Assembly (NCBI RefSeq): GCF_024498175.1
Contig: NZ_CP101823.1
Coordinates: 2,858,987-2,922,986, forward strand
Length of the DNA stretch: 64,000 nt
Source of the DNA: Haloplanus salinarum
GTDB lineage: Archaea > Halobacteriota > Halobacteria > Halobacteriales > Haloferacaceae
Direction: 5' to 3'
The notes under the pieces are model-generated. The model was not told the origin of the DNA, ran no database searches, and worked only from the letters and a program-made list of their open reading frames with translations. How positions within the stretch are numbered: the stretch's first letter is position 1; every line of letters begins with the position of its first letter. The position numbers and the translations under genes are program-made. Shown one piece after another: positions 6,617 to 9,228 of the stretch.

Positions 6617-7960
6617 TCACGCCTCGACGAGCGTCAGGCGGAGGTCCATCACGTTCGTCCCCGTGGGGCCCGTCACCACCGCGTCGTCGACGGCCCGGAG
6701 CGCCGGCGTCGCGTCGTGGCAGTCGAGGTGGGCGACGGGATCACGTCCCGCCGCTTCGAGCCGGGACGCCGTCGTGTGATCCACGAGTCCCCCGGCGACG
6801 TCGGTGGGGCCGTCGGTGCCGTCGGTCCCGAGCGCGAGCGTCGTCACCCGGGGTTCGTCGGCGAGGGCGACCGCCGACCGCAGGGCGAACTCCTGGTTCG
6901 GGCCGCCCTCGCCGGCGCCCTCGCCGACCCGGACGGTCGTCTCGCCGCCCGAGATCAGCACGCACGGCGGGCTGGCCGGCCGCCCGTGGGTCACCGCCTC
7001 GCGGGCGAGCGCCGCCAGACAGGTCGCCACCTCGCGGCTCTCGCCCTCGACCGTCGAGGAGAGGATCAGCGGCTCGTAGCCGCGAGCCGCGGCCCGGTCC
7101 CGGGCGGCCTCGACGACGTCGGCGGGTCCCGCGAGGACGAGGACGTCGCCGTCGGTCGCCCCGGGCGTCTCGGGAACCGCGCCGTCCCGGCCGCGGCGGA
7201 GGTGCCGGGGGACGGCCGGCGGGACGGCGTCGGTCAGGTCGTGACGGTCGAGGACGGCGAGCGCGTCGGCGAACGTCGACCCGTCGCCGACGGTCGGGCC
7301 CCAGGGGTCGCCGGCGGGTTCGTCGACGACGACGAGCGTCGCGAGCGTCGCCGGCGCGACCCGCTCGGCCAGCCGGCCGCCCTTGAGCGTCGAGCAGTGT
7401 TTCCTGACGGCGTTGATCTCGTCGATCCGGAGCCCCGCCCGCAGGAGCCTGTCGGTCACGTCCGCGAGGTCGGACAGCGAGAGGTCCCCGGCGGGGGCGG
7501 CGAGCGTCGCCGAGGCGCCGCCGGTGATGGCGGCGATCACCAAGTCCTCGGGCCCCGCCGCGTCGGCGAGTTCGTGGACCCGCCGGCCGGCCCGCAGGCT
7601 CTCGGCGTCGGGGATCGGATGACCGGCGCCGACGACGGCGACGCCGTCGATGTCGCGTTCGCCGCCCGCCTTCTCGGCGACGACGCCGTCCGTGAGGCGG
7701 TCGCCGAGACGGGAGCGCAGTTCCGCAGCGACGGCGGCCGACCCCTTGCCCGCCGCGAGGAGGTAGACGTCGTCGACGGCGGCGAGGTCGACGGTGCGCT
7801 CGCCGATCCGGAGTCGGTCGCCGTCGCGGGTCACGGCCGCGGGGACGGTCCGACGGGGGTGGACGGCGTCGACGGCCGCGGACGCGATATCGAGGAGGTC
7901 ACGTCGGGCCGTGACGTTGCCGTGGTCGACGAGCGCCGACCGGTTGCGGACGGTCGTCAC
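6617..7960 (-). CDS. Glycerate 2-kinase (MOFRL/DUF4147 family)
   Basis: 447 residues, ATP-dependent conversion of glycerate to 2-phosphoglycerate. Family motifs visible: AAGKGSAAVAAELR near residue 70, GAGHPIPDAES near 110, ITGGASATLAAP near 145, KHCSTLKGGRLAE near 185, and ISGGETTVRV with GPNQEFAL near 340-360. The GTG start overlaps the stop of the upstream enolase-like gene as GTGA (7957-7960), so the two are translationally coupled. 2-phosphoglycerate is the substrate of true enolase, which makes the pairing meaningful. In the semi-phosphorylative pathway of haloarchaea this kinase type acts on glycerate from sugar or serine breakdown. Confidence 0.88.
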   Translation of the reverse strand: MTTVRNRSALVDHGNVTARRDLLDIASAAVDAVHPRRTVPAAVTRDGDRLRIGERTVDLAAVDDVYLLAAGKGSAAVAAELRSRLGDRLTDGVVAEKAGGERDIDGVAVVGAGHPIPDAESLRAGRRVHELADAAGPEDLVIAAITGGASATLAAPAGDLSLSDLADVTDRLLRAGLRIDEINAVRKHCSTLKGGRLAERVAPATLATLVVVDEPAGDPWGPTVGDGSTFADALAVLDRHDLTDAVPPAVPRHLRRGRDGAVPETPGATDGDVLVLAGPADVVEAARDRAAARGYEPLILSSTVEGESREVATCLAALAREAVTHGRPASPPCVLISGGETTVRVGEGAGEGGPNQEFALRSAVALADEPRVTTLALGTDGTDGPTDVAGGLVDHTTASRLEAAGRDPVAHLDCHDATPALRAVDDAVVTGPTGTNVMDLRLTLVEA

Positions 7961-9228
7961 GGGTCGAGGGTCCCCTCGGCGGGCGGGCCGAACGTCGCGG
8001 CGTCGCCCAGTTCGTCCTCGATTTCGAGGAGACGGTTGTACTGTTCGGTGCGTTCGCCGCGGGTCACGCCGGTCTTGATCTGTCCGGCGCCGAGGCCGAC
8101 CGCGAGGTCGGCGAGCCACGTGTCGGGGGTCTGTCCGGAGCGTTCCGACACCTGCACCGCGTAGCCGTTCCGGGTCGCCAGCCGCGACGCCTCCCGTGCC
8201 GCCGTGACGGTCCCGACCTGGTTCACCTTCCAGAGGAGGGCGGTCGCGGCACCGCGGTCGACGCCCCGCCGCAGTCGCTCGGGGGAGGTGACGAAGAGGT
8301 CGTCGCCGACGATCTGGACGTCGAGGCGGTCGGTCAGGTCGGCGTAGCCGTCGAAGTCGTTCTGATCGAGCGGATCCTCCAGCGAGACGACGGGGTAGGT
8401 GTCGACGAGTTCCTCGTAGAACGCGAGAAGCTCCGCCCGGGAGAGGGTCTCGCCGAGGAGGGCGTAGGTCCCCGTCTCGGGGTCGTAGAAGTGGGAGGCG
8501 GCCACGTCCGCCGCGAGGGCGAACTCGCCGTCGTAGCCACACGCCTCGATGGCCCGGAGTTCGAGGTCGAATGCCGTCCGCGGGTCGTCGACGCCGATCG
8601 GGTTGTACCCCCCTTCGGCGCCGACGTTGAGCGACGCCTCGCCGTACTCCGCGCGGACGATGTCCCCGAGTTCGTAGTACACCTCGGCGGCCATCCGGAC
8701 GGCTTCGGCGACGGAGTCGGCGCCGACGGGGACGACCTGGTGTTCCTGGAAGGGGAGGTCCCCGCCGGCGAGTTCGCCGCCCTCGATCAGATCGAAGAAG
8801 GGGAGCGGGAGGACGTGCGTGTCGGCGCCGCCGACGTACCGGTAGAGGGGCTGGTCGGTCGCCGCGGCCCCGGCCCGGAGGGTGGCGAGCGAGACGCCGG
8901 TGATGGCGTTGCCGCCGAGCGGGTCCTCGGGGTCGTCGAGCGCGTCGAGGCGGGCGTCGACGGTTCGCTGGGCGGTGGCGTCGTGGCCGACGAGCGCGGG
9001 GGCGATCCGGTCCTCGACGTTCGCGGCCGCCTGTCGGACCCCACGGCCCCGATACCGGTCGTCGCCGTCGCGCAGGTCGATGGCTTCGTGCTCGCCACGG
9101 GAGCGACCCCGGGGAACGTCGGCCCGGCCGGTGCCGGCGGCCGTCTCGACGGTGACCCGTAACGTCGGCTCCAGGCGATTGTCGAGGATTTCGCGTGCGG
9201 TGATGGCTTCGATGGACGCGTCGGTCAT
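7957..9228 (-). CDS. Enolase paralogue with altered active site
   Basis: 423 residues, full enolase length. Metal ligands are kept: Asp241 (AADVAAS), Glu284 (SLEDP) and Asp309 (VGDD). The catalytic Lys334 (WKVNQVGT), Lys385 (GQIKTG), Glu162 and Glu205 are also kept. Several substrate-loop residues differ from canonical enolase. The SGAST loop reads RGRSRGEHEA (40-49), the GGSHAG loop reads GGELAGG so its His is Leu153, the GDEGG Asp is Ala204, and the SHRSGET His is Glu362. Leaderless haloarchaeal genomes normally carry a canonical eno as well, not seen here. It may act on a related 2-phospho-acid or be a modified enolase. It is coupled to glycerate 2-kinase by a GTGA overlap. Confidence 0.8.
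   Translation of the reverse strand: MTDASIEAITAREILDNRLEPTLRVTVETAAGTGRADVPRGRSRGEHEAIDLRDGDDRYRGRGVRQAAANVEDRIAPALVGHDATAQRTVDARLDALDDPEDPLGGNAITGVSLATLRAGAAATDQPLYRYVGGADTHVLPLPFFDLIEGGELAGGDLPFQEHQVVPVGADSVAEAVRMAAEVYYELGDIVRAEYGEASLNVGAEGGYNPIGVDDPRTAFDLELRAIEACGYDGEFALAADVAASHFYDPETGTYALLGETLSRAELLAFYEELVDTYPVVSLEDPLDQNDFDGYADLTDRLDVQIVGDDLFVTSPERLRRGVDRGAATALLWKVNQVGTVTAAREASRLATRNGYAVQVSERSGQTPDTWLADLAVGLGAGQIKTGVTRGERTEQYNRLLEIEDELGDAATFGPPAEGTLDP

Follow-up and report, generated by a model that had tools for sequence, protein, structure and literature searches.

The window (the whole stretch of DNA that was analysed; 64,000 nucleotides of the Haloplanus salinarum genome) carries two overlapping open reading frames on the reverse strand, which encode homologues of glycerate 2-kinase and enolase and share the bases GTGA at 7960-7957, as described in the first-pass annotation. 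We refer to the enolase homologue as Eno-W. The features discussed below are as follows (window positions).

7957..9228, reverse strand: Eno-W, a divergent enolase paralogue of 423 amino acids with an ATG start, assigned by family profiles and an AlphaFold2 model
6617..7960, reverse strand: divergent class II glycerate 2-kinase homologue (DUF4147 and MOFRL), 447 amino acids, GTG start
7957..7960, reverse strand: GTGA overlap, comprising the enolase TGA stop and the kinase GTG start
9091..9111, reverse strand: lid loop L1 of Eno-W, R40-G-R42-S43-R44-G-E46 in place of S-G-A-S-T-G-x; GRSRG invariant in 17 orthologues
8770..8793, reverse strand: loop L2 of Eno-W, D146..E149-G-G-E152-L153 in place of N..NGGxH, with Leu153 at yeast His159; D146, E149 and L153 invariant in Eno-W
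8617..8619, reverse strand: Ala204 of Eno-W at the Asp position of GDEGG; variable, outside the signature
8128..8148, reverse strand: SERSGQT of Eno-W in place of SHRSGET, with Glu362 at yeast His373 and Gln366 at Glu377; invariant in 17 orthologues
7289..7324, reverse strand: kinase motif D213-E214-P-A216-G217-D-P-W220-G-P-T-V, with a four-residue deletion, in place of SDVxGxDxSVIASGPT

Both proteins match their families over the full length. Eno-W has the Enolase_N (PF03952) and Enolase_C (PF00113) domains and scores 441 bits against TIGR01060, the cut-off of which (300) is exceeded by all three enolases of this genome; in RefSeq the Eno-W copies are named 'phosphopyruvate hydratase'. The AlphaFold2 model has an enolase fold (mean pLDDT 80.6) with a TM score of 0.89 to the Methanocaldococcus jannaschii enolase (MJ0232, 2pa6), and pLDDT falls below 50 at residues 41-58 (the lid loop), at residues 152-156 (a further loop) and at the C-terminus. 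That enolase is the nearest solved one; the two-domain fold is common to Eno-W and enolase (EC 4.2.1.11), and identity to solved enolases is at most ≈49%. The kinase matches PF13660 (DUF4147; 208 bits) and PF05161 (MOFRL; 119 bits), and against the NCBIfam glycerate 2-kinase equivalog it reaches 195 bits, below the cut-off of 550, as does the canonical kinase of the same genome (L060; 208 bits). Haloplanus ruber, the closest named relative in our collection, has a copy that is 93% identical.

The Haloplanus genome (3.45 Mb, one contig) encodes three enolases and two DUF4147 kinases. The first-pass annotation had suggested a search for a second, canonical eno and had counted the lack of one, together with full enolase activity at normal kinetics, against a specialised role of the pair; such a gene is present, beside a gene read as that for ribosomal protein S2 (rps2), which rules out that Eno-W is the sole enolase of the cell. 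The second DUF4147 kinase (L060) has the ordinary loop. Since these canonical copies (L003/L005 and L060) cover the housekeeping steps, the Eno-W pair is not needed for glycolysis as such, and it constitutes an extra, paralogous module.

Eno-W and its kinase were identified at 18 loci, in ten Haloplanus genomes, on plasmids of three Haladaptatus strains, on a Halorubrum sp. CBA1229 plasmid and in four further haloarchaeal genomes. At all 18 the kinase gene adjoins that of Eno-W, overlapping it or lying at most 40 bases away, in both chromosomal and plasmid contexts; at one locus (L083) the order is reversed, with the kinase first, and adjacency is kept. Among 391 genomes sampled from the class Halobacteria, Eno-W (520 bits or more, with the next enolase at 313) and the kinase variant (354 bits or more, with the next kinase at 324) occur in an identical set of 13. 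Likewise, the same four of 72,556 plasmid records top the Eno-W search and the kinase search. The coupling of the kinase to the divergent enolase, proposed from this one sequence, is thus well supported by adjacency at all loci and by co-occurrence in the class sample. Comparison of Haloplanus species gives dN/dS values of about 0.16-0.27 (enolase) and 0.28-0.41 (kinase), and hence both genes are under purifying selection. Bacterial matches (Pandoraea, 47% identical; Acidobacteria and Aminicenantes, 40-44%) have ordinary loops and were rejected as members. The only extra gene seen tightly linked to the pair encodes a DUF6282 protein and overlaps the kinase start in L083 (12058-13011). In one Haloplanus genome (G006) the pair kinase is split by a frameshift near the N-terminus (L047, 7303-8654), and another divergent enolase, Eno-2 (see below), is present only as fragments (G006:C1:826961-827443).

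Alignment with other enolases shows that the Mg(I) ligands are kept in Eno-W (D241, E284 and D309), and that the equivalents of the base Lys345 and of Lys396 (K334 and K385), of the acid Glu211 and of Glu168 (E205 and E162), and of the phosphate-binding Arg374 and Ser375 (R363 and S364) are invariant across Eno-W. This agrees with the first-pass annotation with respect to the metal ligands and the two lysines. The equivalents of the kept residues are named in published structures as touching PEP, 2-phosphoglycerate (2-PG) or Mg, and two Glu contact the 2-PG hydroxyl (PMC4667285, PMC4450660). Apart from His159, the residues known to make such contacts are kept, including the Mg(II)-binding Ser39 of yeast enolase, and an enolase-type elimination is therefore to be expected of Eno-W.

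Around this conserved centre the shell is changed: GASTG to GRSRG, NxxNGGxH to DxxEGGEL (His159 to Leu), SHRSGET to SERSGQT (His373 to Glu) and RGNPT to RLEPT. A residue-by-residue check showed GRSRG, Leu for His159 and Glu for His373 to be invariant in 17 of 17 Eno-W loci, and the two histidine replacements, which had been noted from this copy, are thereby fixed features of the family. R42, R44, D146, E149, L153, E362 and Q366 are found in none of 54 other enolases, where His159 is always kept and position 373 is His (42) or Ala (12); L19, E395 and Q396 likewise differ from all other enolases compared. Two further readings of this copy were retained in part. The replacement of the SGAST loop by RGRSRGEHEA is present, with Ser36, Ala38 and Thr40 each changed to Arg, and the Mg(II) serine is kept; loss of this serine is ruled out since Ser43 aligns with Ser39. 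Ala in place of the GDEGG Asp is real (Ala204), but as a member of the signature it was dropped, because the position is Ala, Asp, Phe or Val among the orthologues, and many methanogen enolases of the ordinary kind have Tyr or Phe there. In the Mycobacterium tuberculosis enolase the equivalent of His159 touches both 2-PG and PEP and may cause the loop to close (PMC10619443). The yeast H159A variant retains significant activity according to the title of a published paper.

In phylogenetic trees Eno-W forms one clade (support 100/100, and 100/99 with the motif columns removed), within which the residue changes are fixed; random, non-conserved loop changes among orthologues, which had been named as an observation that would speak against a distinct enzyme, are contradicted by their invariance in 17 orthologues. 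One Haloplanus copy (L052) clusters with the plasmid copies from Haladaptatus and Halorubrum (100/98), a placement that implies movement of the gene from one genus to another. The enolases of L098 and L100 (INT; other Halobacteriota, G533 and G663) have LSRG and SERSGET, i.e. Thr40 to Arg and His373 to Glu, in common with Eno-W, whereas His159 is kept and the other Eno-W changes are absent; in the one genome inspected there is no kinase neighbour, and the kinases have the ordinary loop. With the motif columns included these enolases are sister to Eno-W (92/90), but this relation is not robust: trees with those columns masked do not reject a canonical haloarchaeal or an Eno-2 grouping. A duplication of the canonical haloarchaeal eno as the source of Eno-W is unsupported, though not rejected statistically (motif-masked AU p 0.21), and the same applies to Eno-W as the sister of Eno-2 (motif-masked AU p 0.20). 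Second enolases with SERSGET and PSGLSRG, with His159 kept and no adjoining kinase, were seen in L098 and L100 and at L125:9070-10338, and it is possible that these enolases represent an intermediate of Eno-W.

The partner kinase has changed as well. It has in common with the class II glycerate 2-kinases of Thermoproteus tenax, Thermotoga maritima (2b8n) and Pyrococcus horikoshii (1x3l) both domains, the TDGTDGPTDVAG motif and GPTGTN, and DGTDGPTDVAG matches by eye the published class II consensus D-X(0,2)-G-X(0,1)-D-[GP]-X(4)-[APS]-[ACDGST] (PMC2063504). However, the SDVxGxDxxxIASGPT loop of the known class II kinases is replaced by DEPAGDPWGPTV. This loop (DE-x-AG-x-PWGPTV in general form) is four residues shorter than that of the 20 other kinases compared, which mostly have SDVVGNDxSVIASGPT, and than the ordinary loop of the solved homologues 1x3l and 2b8n. 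Specifically, all 15 pair kinases have E214, A216, G217 and W220, none of which occurs in the 20 others, including L060; G73, D281, R327, T382 and R400 are further pair-specific residues. The characterised T. tenax enzyme converts D-glycerate to 2-PG (PMC2063504), but given that its active-site loop has diverged from those of known glycerate 2-kinases, the pair kinase cannot simply be called a 2-phosphoglycerate maker, as had been assumed in the first-pass annotation. Many of the canonical haloarchaeal DUF4147 kinases (L154-L170) have GGGNAAA where others have G-G-K-A, the Asn standing where the remaining family members compared have a conserved Lys.

The genes surrounding the pair vary by genome (e.g. 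tat, RNA methyltransferase, nitrite/sulfite reductase, amidase and restriction genes) and recur mainly within Haloplanus. Reading a pathway from neighbour genes was therefore dropped; the neighbours differ between loci, and no single pathway is indicated. Among the Eno-W loci only the copy on the Halorubrum plasmid (pCBA1229) lies in a sugar-acid cluster, near genes for a sugar ABC transporter, an MR/MLE-family enzyme, a mannonate-dehydratase-like protein, 2-hydroxyacid dehydrogenases and 2,5-dioxovalerate dehydrogenase; this single locus suggests a link to sugar-acid breakdown.

The Eno-W pair is thus real, conserved and coupled: a recognisable enolase and a recognisable kinase with a shared, fixed change of the active site. 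This suggests a dedicated two-step route on a phosphorylated acid, maybe not the usual one. We propose that glycerate 2-kinase and enolase gave rise to a mobile module of two enzymes in haloarchaea, in which the substrate pocket would have changed as a unit. The kinase would phosphorylate the 2-hydroxyl of a 2,3-dihydroxy acid, and Eno-W, with two Mg, the Lys base and the Glu acid, would take the C2 proton and eliminate the 3-hydroxyl to yield an enol phosphate. Because the proton-abstraction machinery, the metal sites and phosphate binding are intact, Eno-W is expected to generate an enolate from a carboxylic acid phosphorylated at C2 and then to eliminate from C3. The gain of Arg in the lid and the loss of both pocket histidines would fit a substrate related to, and not identical with, D-2-phosphoglycerate; that lid, histidines and partner kinase have changed in concert would also point to a different substrate. 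Candidates would be an acid from sugar-acid breakdown with a C3 substituent or an additional negative charge, or the L-epimer. Judged from the sequences, the reading that we favour, at about even odds, is a kinase plus lyase whose substrate is some 2,3-dihydroxy acid and not D-glycerate; the fuller reading, an undescribed haloarchaeal two-step catabolic module that converts such an acid to a new enol phosphate, we hold slightly more tentatively. As a counterpoint to a new substrate, the added Arg are partly balanced by the new acidic residues D146, E149 and E362, and these Arg may represent no more than an alternative lid closure.

That the changed pocket still serves the usual substrate is a reading we consider rather unlikely, albeit the main rival. 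The pair would then be specialised D-glycerate isozymes, the kinase making D-2-phosphoglycerate and Eno-W converting it to PEP, for instance at another salinity or with distinct regulation or flux, whereby sugar acids or glycerate would enter lower glycolysis. The retention of the direct substrate-contact and metal residues (PMC4667285) is consistent with this, as are the scores of both proteins in the enolase and glycerate-kinase families, the reaction of the T. tenax class II enzyme (2-PG from D-glycerate; PMC2063504) and the activity that the title of the H159A paper ascribes to that variant; moreover, D-2-hydroxyacid dehydrogenases near the Halorubrum copy could supply D-glycerate. On the other hand, canonical versions of both enzymes are present in the genome besides the pair, and a fixed, concerted change of both active sites is hard to explain with an unchanged substrate.

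Alternatively, Eno-W may keep the enolate chemistry with another outcome, C2 epimerisation or elimination of a group other than hydroxide, e.g. of sulfite from 2-phospho-3-sulfolactate, which might be held by the lid arginines. Such changed outcomes after a common proton abstraction are known in the enolase superfamily (PMC4450660), and the replacement of two pocket histidines while the base, the metals and the phosphate-binding Arg and Ser are kept would fit. We nevertheless find this improbable, since Eno-W retains intact equivalents of Glu211 and Glu168, the residues that act on the departing hydroxyl, and sulfonate or other pathway genes do not recur beside the pair. We are equally doubtful that Eno-W is non-catalytic and serves the kinase or some other partner in a structural or regulatory capacity: the two histidines, L19, E395 and Q396 set it apart from all other enolases compared, but the family-wide invariance of the metal ligands, the Lys base, the Glu acid and the phosphate-binding Arg and Ser would be unusual for a dead enzyme.

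Few enzymes are as conserved as enolase proper, which in annotation is nearly always taken for the glycolytic step. If the substrate is new, the Eno-W clade would illustrate how enolase proper can acquire a different substrate in nature, and the pair is a ready target for enzyme assay; in haloarchaeal models, additional eno genes ought not to be assigned to glycolysis. Our search of the open-access literature, to which most subscription journals do not belong, returned no report of a haloarchaeal enolase of the Eno-W type.

The third enolase of the genome, Eno-2 (L004:7168-8439; G000:C1:90167-91438), with 12 relatives (L053-L058 and L085-L090), is like Eno-W a divergent extra enolase, and at 11 of 13 loci it has a kinase gene as its partner. 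It belongs to a separate clade with invariant His373 to Ala and Glu168 to Asp changes, and the partner, directly upstream in these 11 loci, is an APH-family phosphotransferase (PF01636), as opposed to the DUF4147 and MOFRL partner of Eno-W. Eno-2 and its APH-family kinase, present in some of the same genomes, may represent an independent solution to the same type of problem. Some Eno-2 copies lie near genes for galactarate/altronate dehydratase, MR/MLE and HpcH/HpaI-type aldolase. In the class sample, and uncorrected for phylogeny, Eno-2 is present in 7 of 13 genomes with Eno-W and in 4 of 378 others.
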